Below are positions 9,154 to 33,413 of a stretch of DNA of 64,000 nt, piece after piece (the stretch's first letter is position 1; each line of letters opens with the position of its first letter). The notes below the pieces were generated by a model, which searched no databases, was not told where the DNA came from, and saw nothing but the letters and a program-made list of their open reading frames with translations. The DNA is from Candidatus Propionivibrio dominans. GTDB lineage: Bacteria > Pseudomonadota > Gammaproteobacteria > Burkholderiales > Rhodocyclaceae. The position numbers and the translations under genes were made by a program. The stretch spans positions 1 to 64,000 of the forward strand of contig JADJNC010000067.1 in the NCBI GenBank assembly GCA_016709335.1, written 5' to 3'.

Positions 9154-10013
9154 CGAAGGCGCCTGCTCGCCGCAATGAACAACTCCGGATCGACCATCAC
9201 ACCATTGAGTACCACGCTCCAGTGCAGGTGCGGGCCGCTGGCGCGTCCGGTCATTCCGGAAAGTCCGATGCGCTGACCCCGGGCGACTGCATCGCCGGCC
9301 TGCACGTCGATGCGGTCAAGGTGGCAGTACATGCTGATCAGCCCGTTGCCGTGATCGACGAACACCGTATTCCCGTTGAAGAAATAGTCATCGACCGCCA
9401 GCACCCTGCCCTGCGCGCTGGCCTTGATCGGCGTGCCACGCGGCACGGCGACGTCGAGGCCGGAATGCGGCGAGCGCGGCTCGCCATTGAAGATTCGGCG
9501 CAGGCCGAAGCGGCTGGCCAGCCGCCCTTCGGCAGGCAGCAGGAAGTTGATCCCGATGTCGTCCGCATCGCGCCAGTGCCGCTTCAACTCCTGGATGATG
9601 GCGATCTCGCTGACGGCGCGCGCCTCGTCGGCCGGCGAGAGGTTCACCTTGCTCGAGTCCTTCAGCGTGATGCGTTGTTCGGGGTAGTTTTTGGCACTGA
9701 CCACGAATGGCAGGATTTTCTCTTCGCCCCCGACATTGACGCGCAGTTGATGGCTACCGGGCGGCAGATCAAGCGCGAGGCCAAGCAAGGCGACCCACTG
9801 TCCGTCTTCGCTCGTCACCAGAACGCGCTGCTCGCCGAACCAGGCGCGAGGGGGGCTGGGGCTGGCGCTGCCCGAAACGGCGCCCAGTCTGATCAGCGCG
9901 ATGCCGCCGGGAACGCTCGACGCTCTCGGCAGGGCGAGGACGATGCCCGGCAAAGCGAGAAACAACAAGGCCGCCGCCAGCCGCCGGGAGGTAATCCATG
10001 CAAAGCAGATCAT
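9150..10013 (-). CDS. M23-family peptidoglycan endopeptidase, exported
   Basis: M23 proteins cleave peptidoglycan peptides or act as amidase activators outside the inner membrane. The 287-aa protein begins with a signal-like segment ([21 protein letters not shown]). Near residues 60-115 there is a beta-rich region ([18 protein letters not shown]). The C-terminal M23 domain shows [15 protein letters not shown] (metal ligands His and Asp), [16 protein letters not shown] and GPHLHWSV with the HLH ligand, so it looks active. The ATG at 10013 begins the signal peptide; an upstream start at 10061 would weaken it. It lies 17 bases after the YpfJ-type gene, probably in one operon. Confidence 0.9.
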
Positions 10014-11298: not shown

Positions 11299-12570
11299 AT
11301 GCACAAACCAGCCGCCAAAACCCAGCTCAAGCACTTGCGCACCTCGGACCTCCGTGGCCTGGCCCAACTGGCGACGCAGGCCACCGTGGGCGTGACGCGG
11401 ATCGTCGAAGGCGTGCACCAGTCGATCTGGAACACCCTCGGCGTACCCGGCGGCAAGACACCGGGGCAAACCGGCGGCATCACCGGTCTGGTCTACCGAA
11501 GCATCGATAGCGTTACGCAATTGCTCGGCAAAGGCGTGGACTCGCTGCTGGTCAGGCTGCAACCCCGGCTTGAATCGGCCGCGCAGTCCGAAGCCGCAAC
11601 ACCCCAGCGCGAAGCGGTTCTGGCCGCACTCAATGGCGTGATGGGCGACCGCTTGCTCGCCAACAAAAACCCCTTCGCCATCCCGATGACGCTGCGCTAT
11701 CAGGGTGAAGTATTGAACTGGCAGGCGCTGCCCCCGATGCCCGAGGCCACCGGAAAGGTTCTGCTGCTGATTCACGGCCTGTGCATGAACGACTTGCAGT
11801 GGCGCGCAGAGCACCGCGGGCAGCTCGTCGACCATGGCGCAACCCTGGCCTCGACGCTGGGTTACACCCCCGTCTATCTGCGCTACAACTCGGGTTTGCA
11901 CACCTCGCAGAATGGGCGCGAATTGTCAGCCCTTTTGCAGGAACTGGCCAGACACTGGCCGCTGCCCATAGAAGAACTCACCGTGGTGGCGCACAGCATG
12001 GGCGGCTTGCTGATCCGCAGCGCTGTCCACTACGCCAGACAGGACAGCCTGCACTGGCCGCAGCATCTGAAAAACATTGTGTTCCTGGGCGTGCCGCACC
12101 ATGGCTCACCACTGGAACGGGCCGGCAACCAGGTAGACGCCCTCCTCGGCACCACCCCCTACACCTCGCCTTTCGCCAGGCTCGGCAAGCTGCGCAGCGC
12201 CGGCATTACCGACCTGCGCCATGGCAATGTACTGGACGAAGACTGGCAGGGCCATGATCGCTTTCACAGCAAATCCGACACCCGTCAGCCGCTGCCCCTG
12301 CCCGAGGGTGTGGCCTGCTACACCGTAGCGGCGACTACCGCCGCCAGGCGCAGCAAACTGGCCGAGCGTCTGATCGGTGACGGACTGGTGCCGCTGCACA
12401 GCGCACTCGGACAGCATCACGACGCGCGGCGAAGCCTGATCTTTGCGCAAGCATCGCAAAGGATATTCTTTCGCATGAACCACCTGGCGTTGCTGAGCAG
12501 CCCCGAGGTGACCCGGAAGATGGTGAACTGGCTGACGCCGGTAGAATCGGCTGCAACCCCTGACGGCTAG
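11299..12570 (+). CDS. Alpha/beta hydrolase, lipase/PGAP1-like
   Basis: The 423-aa protein has a roughly 130-residue helical N-terminal part and an alpha/beta-hydrolase domain. The domain begins KVLLLIHGLCMND (oxyanion loop), carries the nucleophile motif VVAHSMGGLLIRS and continues FLGVPHHGSPLERAGN. The late IGDGLVPLHSALG and FRMNHLALLSSPEV probably hold the acid and the catalytic His (NHLALL). Proteins of this build are esterases or lipases. No signal peptide is seen; the N-terminal segment resembles lipase-associated regions of polyhydroxyalkanoate producers, which is only a suggestion. Confidence 0.85.
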   Translation: MHKPAAKTQLKHLRTSDLRGLAQLATQATVGVTRIVEGVHQSIWNTLGVPGGKTPGQTGGITGLVYRSIDSVTQLLGKGVDSLLVRLQPRLESAAQSEAATPQREAVLAALNGVMGDRLLANKNPFAIPMTLRYQGEVLNWQALPPMPEATGKVLLLIHGLCMNDLQWRAEHRGQLVDHGATLASTLGYTPVYLRYNSGLHTSQNGRELSALLQELARHWPLPIEELTVVAHSMGGLLIRSAVHYARQDSLHWPQHLKNIVFLGVPHHGSPLERAGNQVDALLGTTPYTSPFARLGKLRSAGITDLRHGNVLDEDWQGHDRFHSKSDTRQPLPLPEGVACYTVAATTAARRSKLAERLIGDGLVPLHSALGQHHDARRSLIFAQASQRIFFRMNHLALLSSPEVTRKMVNWLTPVESAATPDG

Positions 12571-12594
12571 GGAGCCGCCGATCAAGTCTCAATA

Positions 12595-12665
12595 CGTCAT
12601 TCCGGCGGAAGCCGGAATCCAGAAAAATCAAGGCACTGGACACCGGCTTCCGCCGGTGTGACGGC
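12595..12665. repeat. Paired REP-like palindromes (ATTCCGGCnnnnGCCGGAAT family)
   Basis: Two palindromes, one around attccggcggaagccggaat and one around acaccggcttccgccggtgt, flank a short spacer. The outer ends cgtcat and tgacgg are inverted. The same design recurs near 18976, 20003, 23106 and 34570, always between genes. Confidence 0.85.
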
Positions 12666-12708
12666 TTATTCAGCGTTTCCCTAAACGTGTCTCCGCAAAG
12701 GAACCCGT

Positions 12709-12756
12709 ATGCAAATATCAGCCCAACCCTCTGGCGCCACCGAATGCTCGCAGTGA
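12709..12756 (+). pseudogene. Remnant of a DHCW-cupin gene start
   Basis: A 15-codon frame (MQISAQPSGATECSQ, then TGA) with its upstream bases matches the first 58 bases around the start of the intact cupin gene at 14234. From 12696 to 12711 the identity to 14221-14236 is 16 of 16; over the next 42 bases it is 33 of 42. Beyond TGA the similarity stops at a repeat. This looks like a decayed partial duplicate left on the far side of the Fic/HTH module. Confidence 0.75.
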
Positions 12757-12762
12757 CATATC

Positions 12763-12819
12763 GTAGGTCGGATTAGCGCAGCGCCCCCCAAGGGGATTTC
12801 CTACGGGGCATAACCCGAC
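12763..12819. repeat. GTAGGTCGG...CCCGAC palindromic repeat
   Basis: The segment opens gtaggtcggattagcgcagc and closes cataacccgac, so the ends pair (gtcgg with cccgac). Copies of this family lie at 14104-14216, 28260-28347 and 33383-33413, all intergenic. A copy on each side brackets the mobile mystery A/B pair. Confidence 0.85.
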
Positions 12820-12924
12820 GGCAGTGTAGGCCGCATCCGATGCAAGTCCGTGCTGAAGAAGCTACCCAATAGTCCGGCCAAGCAATAATATTTGCAGTTT
12901 GATGCAAAATCACATTGTTTATTA

Positions 12925-12973
12925 TTGCTCTATAGTACAATATATAGAATATTACTATTGCACTATAGAGCAA
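12925..12973. promoter_or_regulatory. Inverted repeat operator before mobile mystery protein A
   Basis: Two 17-base arms (12925-12941 and 12957-12973) are inverted with one mismatch, centred on an AT-rich 15-base spacer (TTGCTCTATAGTACAAT against ATTGCACTATAGAGCAA). The right arm ends four bases before the ATG at 12978, so a bound protein would block initiation or transcription. The HTH protein encoded just downstream is the likely ligand, giving autoregulation; this is inferred from position. Confidence 0.7.
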
Positions 12974-12977
12974 CTTT

Positions 12978-13445
12978 ATGAAACAAAACTTTTCTGAACT
13001 CAAGCGCCGCCAACTCGATGCCGTCCTTGACCGATGGCGTAGCGCCGACTTGCCGCAACGTCCACCTTCGGGCTGGATCAAGGCCATCCGTGAAGGCCTC
13101 GGGATGACGGCGACACATCTTGCCGGTCGTCTGGGTGTCACCACTTCAACCGTCACTCGTCTGGAGACCTCCGAGGCCGATGACACCATCAGCCTGGGCA
13201 CCTTGCGCCGGGTCGCCGAGGCCTTGGAATGTGAAGTCCGCTATGCGCTGGTGCCAAAGCAATCGCTTGAAGACACCCTGAAAGCGCGCGCCCTTGCGAT
13301 GGCACTTCGGCAGATGGCCCCCATTTCCCACAGCATGGCGCTGGAAGCACAAGCCACCTCGGCCGAGGCCAAAGAGGCGCAGGCCCTCGCCCTCGCCGAA
13401 GCCCTGCGCTCCGGTTCGCCGCGCAAGCTCTGGAAGAATGGCTGA
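12978..13445 (+). CDS. Mobile mystery protein A (XRE-type HTH regulator)
   Basis: The 155-aa protein matches the mobile mystery protein A pattern: LKRRQLDAVLDRW, then GWIKAIREGLGMTATHLAGRLGVTTSTVTRLE (helix-turn-helix, about residues 38-67), LGTLRRVAEALECEVRYALVP, and a helical tail. This family is always paired with protein B, a Fic-fold protein, and is thought to be the antitoxin or repressor partner. The gene follows a 17-bp inverted repeat and ends 11 bases before the Fic gene, which fits an autoregulated two-gene operon. Confidence 0.9.
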   Translation: MKQNFSELKRRQLDAVLDRWRSADLPQRPPSGWIKAIREGLGMTATHLAGRLGVTTSTVTRLETSEADDTISLGTLRRVAEALECEVRYALVPKQSLEDTLKARALAMALRQMAPISHSMALEAQATSAEAKEAQALALAEALRSGSPRKLWKNG

Positions 13446-13456
13446 GCCTCCTGGCT

Positions 13457-14035
13457 ATGCACATTGACTATCCTCCAGGCGCCACCCCGCTCGATGCCGA
13501 CGAACTCGCCAGCCTGATTCCCGGCCACATCACCACGCAGGGCGAGTTGAACGAATGGGAGCACGCCAACATCGTTCAAGGGGATCAGTGGGCACGCAAA
13601 CAACGCAAGGAAATCCTTAACGACACCTTCGTCCGTCAGTTGCACAAACAAATGTTTGGCGAAACCTGGCGCTGGGCCGGCGAATTTCGCAAGTCCAACA
13701 AGAACATCGGCATCGACTGGCCGAAGATTTCTGTCGAGCTGCGCAAACTGCTGGACGACGTTCACTACCAGATCGAACACGCCAGTTGTCCTCCCGACGA
13801 AATCGCTGTCCGATTCCATCATCGGCTGGTCGCCATCCACCCCTTCCCCAACGGCAATGGTCGCCATGCACGCTTGATGGCCGACCTGCTCGTCGAGCGC
13901 CTGGGCCAGCCCCGTTTCACCTGGGGCAGCCGCAGTCTGGTCGATGCAGGCGAAACGCGGCAGGCGTATATCGCTGCCCTGCAAGCCGCCGATGCCCGCG
14001 ATTACGCACCCCTACTCGCCTTTGCCCGAAGCTGA
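13457..14035 (+). CDS. Mobile mystery protein B (Fic-domain protein)
   Basis: The 192-aa protein opens with the family block GATPLDADELASLIPGHI and holds a Fic core HPFPNGNGRHARL at residues 128-140. Fic enzymes transfer AMP or other nucleotide moieties to target proteins. The standard motif is HxFx(D/E)GNGRxxR; here the acidic Mg-binding residue is Asn132, so metal binding and activity may differ. No inhibitory (S/T)xxxE(G/N) helix is evident in the protein. Its HTH partner gene lies upstream, and repeats flank the pair. Confidence 0.9.
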   Translation: MHIDYPPGATPLDADELASLIPGHITTQGELNEWEHANIVQGDQWARKQRKEILNDTFVRQLHKQMFGETWRWAGEFRKSNKNIGIDWPKISVELRKLLDDVHYQIEHASCPPDEIAVRFHHRLVAIHPFPNGNGRHARLMADLLVERLGQPRFTWGSRSLVDAGETRQAYIAALQAADARDYAPLLAFARS

Positions 14036-14103
14036 CCCGATGACCAACGAGTGCGTCGAATTGGCAAGCGTTGCTGATGTTCTGCGGGTACAGGTGACAC
14101 AGC

Positions 14104-14216
14104 GTAGGTCGGGTTAGCGCAGCGTCCCCCAGGAGGATTTGCTTCGCAGCATAACCCGACAATCGTCGGATGCGGCATACACTAACGTCGGGTTACGCTG
14201 CGCTAACCCGACCTAC
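14104..14216. repeat. Composite GTAGGTCGGGTTAGCG palindromic repeats
   Basis: One unit runs from 14104 to 14160 (gtaggtcgggttagcgcagc to cataacccgac). A second compact palindrome follows at 14187-14216 (gtcgggttacgctgcgctaa, then cccgacctac). The first unit is similar in its whole length to 12763-12819 on the other side of the mobile mystery pair. Confidence 0.88.
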
Positions 14217-14233
14217 TACTCAAAGGAACCCGT

Positions 14234-14563
14234 ATGAAAATTTCAGAACTACCCTTTGGCACCACCGACTGGTCGCAGGTTGAAGCCACCGAGCACCAAG
14301 GTGAAAGCGGGCTGGCTTACTGGCGTACCCGGCAATTTGGCGATATCCGGGTACGCATGGTCGAGTACACGCCGGGTTATCTCGCCGATCACTGGTGCGT
14401 CAAAGGCCACATCCTGCTGTGCATCGAGGGCGAACTCATCACTGAACTCGAAGACGGCCGAAAATTCACACTGACACCGGGAATGAGCTACCAGGTCGCG
14501 GATAACGCGGAACCTCATCGTTCCTCGACGGCACTTGGAGCCAGGCTCTTCATCGTCGATTGA
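14234..14563 (+). CDS. DHCW-motif cupin-fold protein
   Basis: The 109-aa single-domain cupin has the DHWC variant of the family motif (YLADHWCVKGHILLCIEGEL) and the second cupin motif around LTPGMSYQVADNAEPHRSST. Its biochemical role is not known. The start is fixed by homology of the MKISELPFGTTDW opening and by the ribosome-site-like aaagga upstream. Its first bases are duplicated at 12696-12756. Confidence 0.9.
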   Translation: MKISELPFGTTDWSQVEATEHQGESGLAYWRTRQFGDIRVRMVEYTPGYLADHWCVKGHILLCIEGELITELEDGRKFTLTPGMSYQVADNAEPHRSSTALGARLFIVD

Positions 14564-14762
14564 GAAAATTCACAGTGTCGGCAACACTTTTGGAGTGACC
14601 CACCCGCCATGTTTTTCATACCGGGGTATCCATACAAATGCGGTAGCGCTTCTACGACCTTGGTTTCCGGCGTGCATATAGGCTCCATAATTCTCGCGCA
14701 GTTGCAATTATCATGATGCAATGTCGAGGGAATGACTCTCTTGTGAACCAGACGAATTTTCC

Positions 14763-16226
14763 ATGAAACAATCAAACGCAAAGATCGTCAGCTTTGTCAG
14801 GACGGTTGAAGCCTCGTCAGCCGGGGCAGAAATCTGGTCAGGCGACGATGCGGATTGGGCAACCCGCCTCGCCACCCAGGAGTTGGGAGAGGCCGCGCCC
14901 GTCGAGCGCTTTATCGATACCCGGGCACGCATCGCCTGGCAGCGTATCTCCGATCGTCGCCCGGAGCTGGAGAGAGCACTGGAAAAACGCGACCTGGGCA
15001 CGCTTTTCGGTTGGGCGATCATTTTGCTCGCCCTGATTGCCGGAATCCTCACCGATCAGATCGGCGATTCCAGGCAAGTCAATCTCCTGGCGCTACCGTT
15101 CGTCGCGATCATTGTCTGGAACCTGGCAATCTATGCCTGGCTTCTCCTCCTGCGACCCATCCTGGGACTTTTCGGCTTCAAAGGCGGCATACGGCGCTGG
15201 TTGGAGAGCAGACTTTCCGGATATCCGAATACCGGCATTGAACAGCAGATCGCTGAGAAGATTTCACTGAGCGTGCGTTGTCAGGCAGACTGGGCCAGGC
15301 TGTCCCTGCCGGCTACCAGTGCGCGGGTCGCGCGGGTGCTCCATCTGGCGGCGGCCATGTTCGTTTTCGGGTTGATCGTGGCGATCTATTCGCGCGGGTT
15401 TTACACCGAATATCGTGTTGGCTGGGAAAGTACGCTGCTGGACGCGTCCGATATCAGCGCGGCCCTGGCCACATTTTTCAACTGGATGCCAATCACTTTT
15501 GGCCTTGCCGCACCGGACCCATCGACGGTCGAACAGATGCGCTTCTCGGCAGGCGGTGGCCTGATCGGCGCCCGTCCCTGGCTTCATCTCCTGGCGTTCC
15601 TGGCCATTGCTCTGGTAATTCTGCCGCGCCTTGCCCTGGTCGCCTTCGCCTCCTTTCGGCTGAGGATGTTCGAACGTCGGTTCCCGATCGACCTGACACG
15701 CGGCTACTTCCAGAAACTGGCGGCAAGGTACGCCAGGAAGCCCAGGGAGGTTGTCGCCATTCCCTATGCCAAAGCGCTTCTCCCCGAGTCGGCTATCGTG
15801 CTCAATCAAGTCGTGCAGGACGTTTTTGGCACACCAGGCACCGTCAGAATTCTCGATACGGTTCAGTTTGGCGGGGAGGACGACATGCCGGTGCTTGCCT
15901 CAAAAAACCAGGATTCGATCCATCTTGCGCTGTTCGATCTGGCTTCGACCCCGGAAAGCGAGAATCACGGCGTCTTCCTCAAGGCGCTGAAACGTGAGGT
16001 GCCGTCCGGACATTCGGTAATTTCCCTCGTTGATAGCCGCGAATTCAAAGCGCGCTTCGGCAGCACAGGAGACCGGCTGGAACAGCGGACGAAGCTCTGG
16101 CGCCGCTTTCTGGAGGACTGCGCTGTGCCTTGCGTCATCGGCGATCTTGCCGAGGTGGGTAGCGATGAGTTGCGCCGGAACTTCGAGTCGGCATTGGCCG
16201 AAGCAGGCGGAGGTCGCCATGAGTAG
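14763..16226 (+). CDS. DUF2868 membrane protein
   Basis: The 487-aa protein has DUF2868 features: an N-terminal soluble part with ARIAWQRISDRRPELERAL, a hairpin of two helices at about residues 80-130, further membrane segments near 195-220 and 275-300, and a long C-terminal soluble domain (KSRTV-type region, DMPVLASKNQDSIHLALFDL). DUF2868 proteins are always next to a DUF3482 GTPase. Here the two genes overlap by eight bases (16219-16226). Their shared role is unknown; a membrane-coupled GTPase system is the plain inference. Confidence 0.85.
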   Translation: MKQSNAKIVSFVRTVEASSAGAEIWSGDDADWATRLATQELGEAAPVERFIDTRARIAWQRISDRRPELERALEKRDLGTLFGWAIILLALIAGILTDQIGDSRQVNLLALPFVAIIVWNLAIYAWLLLLRPILGLFGFKGGIRRWLESRLSGYPNTGIEQQIAEKISLSVRCQADWARLSLPATSARVARVLHLAAAMFVFGLIVAIYSRGFYTEYRVGWESTLLDASDISAALATFFNWMPITFGLAAPDPSTVEQMRFSAGGGLIGARPWLHLLAFLAIALVILPRLALVAFASFRLRMFERRFPIDLTRGYFQKLAARYARKPREVVAIPYAKALLPESAIVLNQVVQDVFGTPGTVRILDTVQFGGEDDMPVLASKNQDSIHLALFDLASTPESENHGVFLKALKREVPSGHSVISLVDSREFKARFGSTGDRLEQRTKLWRRFLEDCAVPCVIGDLAEVGSDELRRNFESALAEAGGGRHE

Positions 16227-17694
16227 CGAGAACCTCTCGATCAACCTGAGCCTCGTCTCGCATACCAACGTCGGCAAGACCACGCTGGCCCGTACCCTTC
16301 TTAAACAGGATATCGGCGAGATCGGAGACAGGCCGCATGTGACGGCGTTGTCCGAGCCTCACGTGCTGATACGCGATAGCCAGTCTGCTTCACTCACCCT
16401 CTGGGATACCCCTGGCTTCGGCGATAGCGTCCGGCTTGCCAAGCGCCTGAGCCAGCGCGGGAACCCGATCGGCTGGTTCCTTTCGGAGGTTTGGGATCGC
16501 TGGATGTCCAGACCCCTGTGGTCAAGCCAACAGGCCATGAAGAATGTGAAGGAACAGGCCGATGTGGTCCTCTATCTGGTCAATGCCTCGGAGTCGCCAT
16601 CGGCCGTCGCCTATGTCGAGGCGGAGATGCAAATCCTTTCATGGGTCGAAAAGCCGGTCCTGGTGCTGCTGAACCAGATGGGGAGGCCGCGCCCGAAGGA
16701 CGTCGAGGAAAAGGATCAGGCCGCGTGGCGCCATTATATGGAGCGCTTCCCCATCGTTTTCGGCATCCTGCCGATGGATGCATTTGCTCGCTGCTGGATT
16801 CAGGAAATAGCCCTCTTCGAGATGATCGGCAGAGCGATACCGGACTCCAGGAAGGCCGCATTCGAAGGACTTCAGATGTACTGGGCCGCCGAACGGATCA
16901 AAGACTACCGGCTGTCGGTTGCCGCCATCGGTAAATTCCTTGCCGCTTTGGCATCAGACAGCGAGCACTTCGAGAGCGATGGGCTAAGCGGCAAGCTCAA
17001 GGCGATGGCGCGCAAGCTCGGACGGTCTGACCAAAAGGATGTGCCGCCCGCGGCGAGGGCGATGGAGCGACTGGCAGAACGTGCCGCTGTCTCGATGAAG
17101 TCGCTGACCGATCAGCTCATCGAACTGAACGGTCTCAAGGGTGAGGCGGCCAGGGAGATTCTCAACCGCGTTCAACAGGATCTTTCGATCGACGAGGAGA
17201 TCAACGAAGGCAGCGCTGCGGTGGTTGGCGCCGTAGTGTCGGGAGCGATTTCCGGTTTGGCTGCCGACCTGATGGCAGGGGGACTCACCCTGGGTGCCGG
17301 AGCGATCGCCGGGGCAGTGCTCGGAGGGCTTGGGTTTGCCGGCGTGGCCAAGGGCTATAACCAGATCACTGGCAAGGACGGCACGGTCGTGCGCTGGAAT
17401 CAGGAATCAATCGAGCGATTCTTCTCCGACACCTTGCTCCTCTACCTTGCGGTCGCACATTTCGGCCGCGGCCGCGGCGAGTGGAGCCGGTCCGAGCATC
17501 CGGAGCACTGGCGTTCCGAGGTACAGCGAGTGCTTGAGGGGGGTTCGGCCGATCTCCCCAAGCTTGCCCAAGGCGGGGCGGAGCATGATCGTCGCCACCT
17601 GGAGGAAGCGTTTGAACGATGCGCGGGTTGGGCAATCGAGCGGGTACTACGCAATCTGTATCCCGACTCGAAGCTGCCAAAGATGGGTTTGTGA
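16219..17694 (+). CDS. DUF3482 GTPase
   Basis: The 491-aa protein starts with a G domain: SHTNVGKTTL (P-loop, residues 14-23), LWDTPGFGD (G3) and LVLLNQMG (G4-like). The usual first Gly of the P-loop is Ser14, and the G4 NKxD is changed to NQMG. The middle is helical. The C-terminal third has a glycine-zipper hydrophobic stretch (AVVSGAISGLAADLMAGG, then GAIAGAVLGGLGFAG) that probably enters or touches the membrane. It pairs with the overlapping DUF2868 gene. Confidence 0.85.
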   Translation: MSSENLSINLSLVSHTNVGKTTLARTLLKQDIGEIGDRPHVTALSEPHVLIRDSQSASLTLWDTPGFGDSVRLAKRLSQRGNPIGWFLSEVWDRWMSRPLWSSQQAMKNVKEQADVVLYLVNASESPSAVAYVEAEMQILSWVEKPVLVLLNQMGRPRPKDVEEKDQAAWRHYMERFPIVFGILPMDAFARCWIQEIALFEMIGRAIPDSRKAAFEGLQMYWAAERIKDYRLSVAAIGKFLAALASDSEHFESDGLSGKLKAMARKLGRSDQKDVPPAARAMERLAERAAVSMKSLTDQLIELNGLKGEAAREILNRVQQDLSIDEEINEGSAAVVGAVVSGAISGLAADLMAGGLTLGAGAIAGAVLGGLGFAGVAKGYNQITGKDGTVVRWNQESIERFFSDTLLLYLAVAHFGRGRGEWSRSEHPEHWRSEVQRVLEGGSADLPKLAQGGAEHDRRHLEEAFERCAGWAIERVLRNLYPDSKLPKMGL

Positions 17695-17783
17695 TTGAAG
17701 TTGAACAACGAATGGAGGCAGCGAATGGCACCCAGGATTGCGGCCTACTTCAGGCATTACCCTCTTTATTACACTCTTTCAAG

Positions 17784-18836
17784 CTAATTACCCCTTTTCT
17801 GCCAAAGTGCACCCGGACCACGACCGATGCAATCGACCGTTTGACCTTTCCGGGTAGTCAACACTCGCCGGATCATGTCGCGGCTTACTCCCGGGCAGGC
17901 ACGCTCCAGGTCGGTCAAGGAAAACGTGCTCGTCATTTTGCTGATCGCTTCCAGCACCAGTTGGGTTTTCGAGCCGCGTGGCTCCGAAGTCTCCCCAACG
18001 CGTTCGACAAATTCCCGATACGCTGTCTTGAAAATGAACAGGACGTATTTGATGTATAGCCATGGATCATGCTTGCCTTCGTGCCAGCCCTGCGAGCTTT
18101 GCGCCAGGGTTTCGTAGTAACGATCCTTGTGCTGCTCAACCAGGCGTTCCAGGCTGATGTAGCGACCGACCTCGATGCCCAGTTGGTAACTCTGTAACAG
18201 CCAGAGCAGACGGGAGACTCGGCCATTGCCATCGCGGAACGGATGGATGCACAAGAAATCGAGATTGAACGCTGCCAGCGCGATCAGCGGCGGCACCCAG
18301 CGGTCTTCCAGGCAGGCTTGCCAATCGCCACCCAACTGCGTCATGGCTGCTGGCGTTTCCTTAGCGGGTACGGTGCAAAAACGTACTCGTCCCCTGCCAT
18401 CGGGATAACGCTCGATAATGTCGCTGTCCTTCTCCTTGTACAGACCTGCATCCCAGATCTGTCCGCGTGTCATGGCATGCAGCCGCTGGATGGTTTCGTT
18501 GGAGACTGGGATGTGCTGCGCATCCTGGTGGATCAATGTCAGGGCATCGCGGTAGCCACGCACCTCTTCCTCGTCACGATCACGGAACAGGGGCTCAGGT
18601 GACACCAGCACATCGCGCACCCGGGAAGATTCGACGGACACACCCTCAATACGGTTCGAGGAGACCGCACTTTCGATCAGCGCATGCTCGCGCAGGGCCT
18701 TGAGGCGCTGAGGAGACTGCCGGGTATAGAGCTCCTGCTTGCCGTGAAATTCACCCAGGTCCGAAAGGTACCAAGCCGTGGCTGGGTGAATGGCGTAGTT
18801 GCCATTTGTGAATCGCTTCAAGGTTGATATGTTCAT
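17784..18836 (-). CDS. Fic family protein with N-terminal inhibitory helix
   Basis: The 350-aa protein carries SSNRIEG at residues 59-65, the (S/T)xxxE(G/N) inhibitory motif of class II Fic proteins, and the complete core HPFRDGNGRVSR from residue 198. The C-terminal 60 residues (TFSLTDLERACPGVSRDMIRRVLTT) look like a winged helix that may bind DNA or a partner. AMP transfer is the usual activity. It is a self-regulated Fic protein, unlike the protein at 13457, which lacks that helix. It is convergent with the GTPase gene. Confidence 0.93.
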   Translation of the reverse strand: MNISTLKRFTNGNYAIHPATAWYLSDLGEFHGKQELYTRQSPQRLKALREHALIESAVSSNRIEGVSVESSRVRDVLVSPEPLFRDRDEEEVRGYRDALTLIHQDAQHIPVSNETIQRLHAMTRGQIWDAGLYKEKDSDIIERYPDGRGRVRFCTVPAKETPAAMTQLGGDWQACLEDRWVPPLIALAAFNLDFLCIHPFRDGNGRVSRLLWLLQSYQLGIEVGRYISLERLVEQHKDRYYETLAQSSQGWHEGKHDPWLYIKYVLFIFKTAYREFVERVGETSEPRGSKTQLVLEAISKMTSTFSLTDLERACPGVSRDMIRRVLTTRKGQTVDCIGRGPGALWQKRGN

Positions 18837-33382: not shown

Positions 33383-33413
33383 TGTCGGGTTTTGCTACGC
33401 TAACCCGACCTAC
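33383..33413. repeat. Partial GTCGGGTTNNGCTACGC palindrome
   Basis: The unit tgtcgggttttgctacgctaacccgacctac is a single half-length copy of the family at 12763, 14104 and 28260. Confidence 0.8.

Follow-up and report, generated by a model that had tools for sequence, protein, structure and literature searches.

A pair of genes encoding mobile mystery proteins A and B (the A/B pair) has probably inserted at the start of a cupin gene in Candidatus Propionivibrio dominans, with a long, variable target duplication. The pair lies in the window, the 64,000-nucleotide stretch of DNA analysed here (contig JADJNC010000067.1 of assembly GCA_016709335.1). On this explanation the arrival of A/B and the duplication of the cupin start would be one event. 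By comparison with relatives, the unit is an operon of operator, mobA and mobB; its left end is ragged and here includes the final 15 codons of brxC, a BREX gene, and its right end falls shortly after mobB. Such insertions would have recurred, placing the pair between brxC and pglX in some relatives and at different genes, with duplications of their own, in others; we infer a single mechanism behind these insertions. No transposase gene was found in the insert, and the joining step would probably rely on template switching or on repair of a staggered break by the host.

The duplicated cupin start and its empty site

The intact DHCW cupin gene occupies 14234..14563 on the forward strand (NF038084, 186 bits; cut-off 70). 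Its leader and first 15 codons (14216..14278, forward strand; target copy 2) form a 63-nt direct repeat with a decayed leader and first 15 codons at 12691..12753 on the same strand (target copy 1). The two copies agree at 52/63 positions (83%), against 31/63 at the second-best position within 3 kb upstream, and blastn inside the window aligned the left copy to the cupin start with E 4.5e-13. The original prediction had recognized both the decayed start and 16 identical bases on the two sides (CAAAGGAACCCGTATG, 12696-12711 and 14221-14236), and both are real; the end that it gave to the left copy, 12756, is wrong, as the homology stops at 12752/12753 because GTGACATATC is part of a repeat element. 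Codon changes special to the left copy alter the amino acid in five of five cases (read by hand), as in a dead fragment. An assembly artefact is unlikely, because it would yield identical copies.

Genes of the window match a Rhodocyclaceae MAG and an unclassified proteobacterial MAG (L038, L046). Relatives of the cupin were sought in 28 genomes of the genus, of which G207 is the closest (cupin 94% identical). At its locus L132 the cupin begins at 9577, shortly after the end of the esterase frame at 9552, with neither A/B nor palindrome; the corresponding esterase-like gene of the window, the cupin's left neighbor in the empty site, lies at 11299..12570 on the forward strand (PGAP1-like alpha/beta domain of Pfam; 94% amino acid identity in L132). 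Esterase and cupin are likewise adjacent in L135, and the other 12 relatives have no esterase match beside the cupin. The cupin start is single in all 14 relatives (up to 3 kb upstream searched). The predicted empty site with a single cupin leader is therefore found in L132, giving the single-copy target expected of a long target duplication, and empty-site genomes carrying both cupin copies, which would have counted against the idea, did not appear (second start in 0/14 relatives). The leader ahead of the left copy (TAAACGTGTCTCCGC) resembles the empty-site leader in L132, so both copies adjoin native DNA outwards, which is how a target duplication is arranged; 12754-14215 is accordingly read as an insert flanked by two copies of its target. 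Because the empty site has a single leader and none of the 14 relatives a second start, the cupin duplication fits the arrival scar that had been proposed; the palindromes counted as part of that scar do not. An earlier tandem duplication of the whole cupin was rejected, since the 14 genus genomes yield one match each (13 full-length, one partial) and no second start upstream, evidence that comes from relatives and not from the window's own lineage.

Across the 63 sites the window copies differ at 11, the left copy and L132 at 16, and the right copy and L132 at 14. With L133 as outgroup, read by hand, three sites unite the window copies against L132, one unites the left copy with L132 and none the right copy with L132; these small numbers suggest that the window copies may have arisen after the split from G207. 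They also bear on homology-facilitated illegitimate recombination, an unlikely explanation in which a donor fragment already had A/B beside its own copy of the gene end, and would have used homology to join at that gene, with a chance join at its other end, so that the repeat would be donor and recipient copies and not a copied target. The copies do differ as those of different species might, by 17% in the window (11/63) and by 15-20% at two other A/B loci (L190 and L201), but the shared sites just given and the 96% identity of the copies at a further locus (L237) speak against it.

Three features of the neighborhood are recorded as side observations. An inverted repeat of the CATTCCGGC type, absent from L132, lies between the esterase and the left cupin copy (12595-12663), and TGACGGCT stands on both of its sides (by eye). 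A DUF2868 gene, a GTPase-like gene and a second Fic gene (350 aa) occupy 14763-18836, between the cupin and the next conserved genes, which in L133 directly follow the cupin without this stretch. Some DHCW cupin genes in other bacteria (L020, L034, L042, L067 and L072; by eye) have attachment-site (attC)-like ends such as AACGTTAGGC just upstream, and the DHCW cupin may itself travel as an integron cassette.

REPIN repeats at the junctions

The GTAGGTCGG repeat sits on the inner side of each cupin-start copy. On the right is a complete REPIN, an inverted pair of 113 nt (14104-14216) with 10 nt ahead of it (14094..14216 in all, forward strand); on the left a truncated one (12753..12840, forward strand) consists of the 10-nt GTGACATATC, a long REP and half a spacer, with the second REP missing, and has family copies in G207. 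A second direct repeat, of 67 nt and 85% identity, pairs 12753-12819 with 14094-14160. The palindrome copy predicted for each side is thus complete only on the right, where two GTAGGTCGG ends stand at 14104 (forward) and 14216 (reverse). The left element has 18 matches in G207, where ten inverted pairs of 61-128 nt were recognized, five of them of 113 nt like the window's right REPIN, which places the repeats among the dispersed inverted REP pairs. The portions of PMC3116915 available to us describe REPINs as REP pairs, inverted around a spacer and scattered through the genome; the arrangement here differs in that one complete and one truncated element, of two variants, edge an unrelated insert.

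The best match of the left element is L147 (54/57) and that of the right L149 (56/57), while the two match each other at 49/57; on this comparison they are two independent copies, different variants of a dispersed family. The original prediction had treated the palindromes as a matched pair and as part of the moving unit. Each is closer to another dispersed copy than to its partner, and neither the empty site nor any of 28 other A/B loci (L186-L213, within up to 1.5 kb) has one; the empty site was expected to keep one copy. Up to 3 kb on either side of the cupin, the window's repeat element is found in 0/14 relatives. The junction REPINs would be dispersed repeats, brought from the donor or added later.

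It is very improbable that the REPINs carried A/B as a composite element. They do stand at both junctions with their outer ends inverted, and one of the four Y1-transposase genes (PF01797) of G207 lies on contig C238, which also bears this repeat; against this, the repeats are missing from the other A/B loci as above, the two are not mutual closest copies, the left one is cut, and 11 other REPINs have no long flanking duplication. Insertion of a REPIN as the cause of the 63-bp duplication was rejected on the same 11 elements (found by pattern), none of which has flanking repeats exceeding 13 bp. Another REP, near 33413, is aligned through in G207 and so is old.

The A/B operon, its edges and brxC

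A profile search of the window places mobile mystery protein A, a helix-turn-helix (HTH) protein, at 12978..13445 (TIGR02612, 152 bits; cut-off 122.6) and mobile mystery protein B, a Fic protein, at 13457..14035 (TIGR02613, 281 bits; cut-off 124.4), both on the forward strand. The two genes belong to the mobile mystery A/B pair, as both proteins exceed the NCBI curated cut-offs and A is upstream of B. MobB has the Fic domain of Pfam (PF02661, 5.6e-13) and the active-site motif HPFPNGNGRHAR, which together mark it as a Fic enzyme; the motif pattern is present in 47 of 56 MobB rows. The position held by Asn in MobB is usually Asp or Glu in the Fic active-site motif. The nearest MobB, at 99%, is a protein named Propionivibrio sp. 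(P0001). Differences from the MobB of L193 concentrate by codon position (12, 8 and 51 of 190 codons), so the gene is under constraint.

In MobA, M-x-L-E-x-Q is invariant in 55/55 rows, a Ser or Thr stands four residues ahead of that Glu in 49/55, and the residue after the Glu is mostly Ala. The Fic antitoxin inhibitory motif is (S/T)xxxE(G/N), which this putative motif resembles, the residue after Glu excepted. Ahead of mobA are three 16-bp palindromes, TTGC-N8-GCAA, on the forward strand (12892-12907, 12925-12940 and 12958-12973), kept in relatives: the same three occur at 33-bp steps ahead of mobA in 17/17 relatives of the clade, and in other clades the 33-bp spacing recurs with different half-sites in many, not all, rows. 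A pattern with a 7-nt centre gave no match; an 8-nt centre fits instead. These palindromes are likely MobA operators. In place, the pair would probably be kept as a toxin-antitoxin-like module, in which MobA may repress the operon through the three spaced palindromes and hold the Fic enzyme MobB in check. The pair is found on chromosomes, plasmids (255 records) and viral contigs (21); the 21 viral contigs (L165-L185) encode MobB relatives at 46-61% identity, several with triple palindromes.

Within the family, 28 of 395 genomes have TIGR02613 matches above the cut-off, at 29 places in all. When the window is aligned to these A/B loci, the longest alignments run from 12842 to 14038 (L193 and L196) or nearly so, and the A/B DNA is therefore estimated to span about 12841 to 14038; these edges fall inside the flanks that the original prediction had named as the boundary. 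At the left edge lies a decayed brxC tail, the last 15 codons and stop (12841..12888, forward strand). These first 48 nt match L224 at 34/48 and eight other loci at 28-33/48, and for all nine, 0 of 5000 shuffles did as well; the preceding 41 nt match L224 at 10/41 and reach 6-12 of 41 across the comparisons. Searching with BrxC by tblastn does not find this short tail. On the right, homology to A/B relatives ends at 14033-14042 in alignments that reach the end of mobB, leaving a stretch of 58 nt (14036..14093) before the REPIN. Comparison of these sequences shows a unit whose end is ragged on the left and lies just past mobB on the right.

The pair stands between an intact brxC and pglX in L222 and L219, and PADLOC recognizes BrxA, BrxB, BrxC and PglX on L222. 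BrxC sequence precedes mobA in 10 of 20 loci searched: two are intact, six are tails (24, 24, 30, 35, 49 and 99 codons) and two are in pieces. In a MobB tree of 53 rows, all 10 rows with brxC tails, the window included, fall in one supported set of 17 (99/99). Among 17 brxC 3' ends in the family (L270, a short fragment, left out; L272 lies inside a gene fragment), pglX follows within 25 nt in five and something else in 12, two of which are A/B, so that the brxC-pglX junction of BREX loci is a variable slot. The survey covered L252-L266, L271, L272 and L279-L289, with gene names taken from reading of translations; by eye, other contents of the slot include an HTH gene (L254), a VapBC-like pair (L260), an Abi-like gene (L258 and L259), a GTPase-like gene (L257) and ATPase-like genes. 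According to the part of PMC8565348 available to us, the pEFER BREX locus, of type I, has brxU as an additional gene in this slot, flanked by brxC and pglX; brxU encodes a type IV restriction enzyme, whereas here the slot is filled by a Fic/HTH pair. We found no literature joining the brxC/pglX slot with Fic genes or BREX with mobile mystery genes, and the portion of the main text of PMC12839542 that was accessible mentions neither 'Fic' nor 'mobile mystery'.

It is decidedly improbable that the cupin site first received an entire BREX island, which later eroded in place, with A/B staying because it resisted loss as an addiction module. Pieces of brxC beside A/B in L232 and L223, part of pglX left in L232 and the 15 brxC codons retained in the window are what erosion would leave; against it, searches with BrxC and PglX found no other BREX remnant in 12001-15000, and in L201 a brxC tail of 35 codons is immediately adjacent to the duplication, so that the unit landing there may have been small.

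Duplications beside other A/B units and parallels in other systems

The explanation that A/B inserted with a long target duplication draws on other A/B units as well. Direct repeats at E<=1e-10 flank five of 27 units, one of them the window; adding L220, an A/B unit met among the controls, gives 6/28 A/B units against 3/443 controls (Fisher p 1.9e-6), or 5/26 (p 1.8e-5) if L204, L205 and L206 are taken as one shared site. The controls are 445 less two A/B units (L220 and L221), and a few others may overlap A/B genes; L211 (without mobA) and L209 (without a right flank) were dropped from the search, as was the repeat of L208 (E 0.006), and L198 was set aside as a repeat array (spacing about 73 bp). 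Wider flanks gave 7/60 loci, again with L198 set aside, against 10/555 controls; the 60 include some loci twice and near-identical viral contigs. The remaining 22 of 28 units have no flanking repeat at this threshold. A/B units elsewhere without such flanks, which had been named as evidence against the original prediction, are thus found for the palindromes in 28/28 cases and for the duplication in 22/28, with 6/28 duplicated.

Copies vary in length, from 63 bp in the window to pieces of 42-139 bp elsewhere, and in the gene concerned: the 3' end of cysM in L190 (139 bp, 84.9%), the 3' end of waaA in L220 (about 70 and 87 bp), the 3' part of a class V aminotransferase gene in L204 (42 and 29 bp) and L205 (45 bp) and, in the wider flanks, the 5' end of an aldo/keto reductase gene in L227 (67 bp, 85%) and the 3' end of an unnamed 82-aa ORF in L237 (99 bp, 96%), a locus of a distant MobB clade. 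In L201 (65 and 30 bp, 80%) a gene 3' end was rejected as the target, which is the start region of an opposite-strand gene with a nucleotidyltransferase domain, and the duplication is directly ahead of the brxC tail. Measured from the last mobB codon, the second copy starts 3-14 nt downstream in five of these seven loci (+3 in L190, +8 in L220, +12 in L227 and L204, +14 in L205), and at +36 in L201 (+6 with a weaker piece) and +59 in L237. The window's second copy starts at +189, beyond the REPIN and the 58-nt stretch. Copies are mostly 77-93% identical (L237 excepted), which may reflect old events or copies from different sources. Several findings weigh against the preferred explanation: the 22 units without such a repeat, the imperfect identity of most copies, the distance of +189 in the window and the DNA that fills it, the brxC tail there that tblastn does not detect, the single site of L204, L205 and L206, and the controls (3/443 and 10/555) that also have long flanking repeats.

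Two of these loci have further features. The genome with the waaA-end duplication (G088) holds two A/B units at different places, L218 and L220; in L198 (G284) the short repeats, possibly a CRISPR array, adjoin the A/B unit. An integron gene cassette as the vehicle of A/B was provisionally set aside on a simple attC-like pattern, which has no match at L186-L215.

A more far-reaching possibility, which we regard as tentative and rather doubtful, is that the A/B operon is itself the minimal mobile unit, inserting repeatedly at gene ends without a transposase, with a long variable duplication and one end near the mobB stop. BREX loci would then be one home from which A/B spreads, and cells with a broken module would perhaps die, only re-inserters surviving. 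Death of cells with a broken module and survival of re-inserters has been argued for restriction-modification (RM) systems.

Insertion with long, variable target duplication is described for RM genes in the portions of PMC3874152, PMC3031569 and PMC1643837 available to us, the first of which cites Nobusato et al. 2000 and Furuta et al. 2010 for it. Judged against those portions, the cases are alike in that a gene unit without a known mobile element is flanked by a direct target duplication, of lengths varying around 100 bp, and the empty site is single-copy; they differ in that the unit here is a Fic-type toxin-antitoxin-like pair, the copies are more decayed and there is a link to BREX. The A/B duplications fit the RM pattern. 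Literature on long target duplication (titles, openings of abstracts and passages, with few subscription papers) yielded nothing on mobile mystery genes, and the accessible literature on 'mobile mystery protein' no account of how the pair moves.

The window's pair has the same two genes in the same order as known mobile mystery pairs (TIGR02612/TIGR02613); here, in addition, the footprint of an insertion and a remnant of the donor neighbor can be made out. With an empty site, both insertion edges, the donor trace (brxC) and recurring long duplications at other genes in hand together, the mode of movement of the mobile mystery pair becomes testable. If the explanation is true, the RM insertion pattern would extend to a Fic-type toxin-antitoxin-like pair. 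Comparable scars, seen next to some of the related pairs of other bacteria, point to one route by which mobile mystery genes spread.
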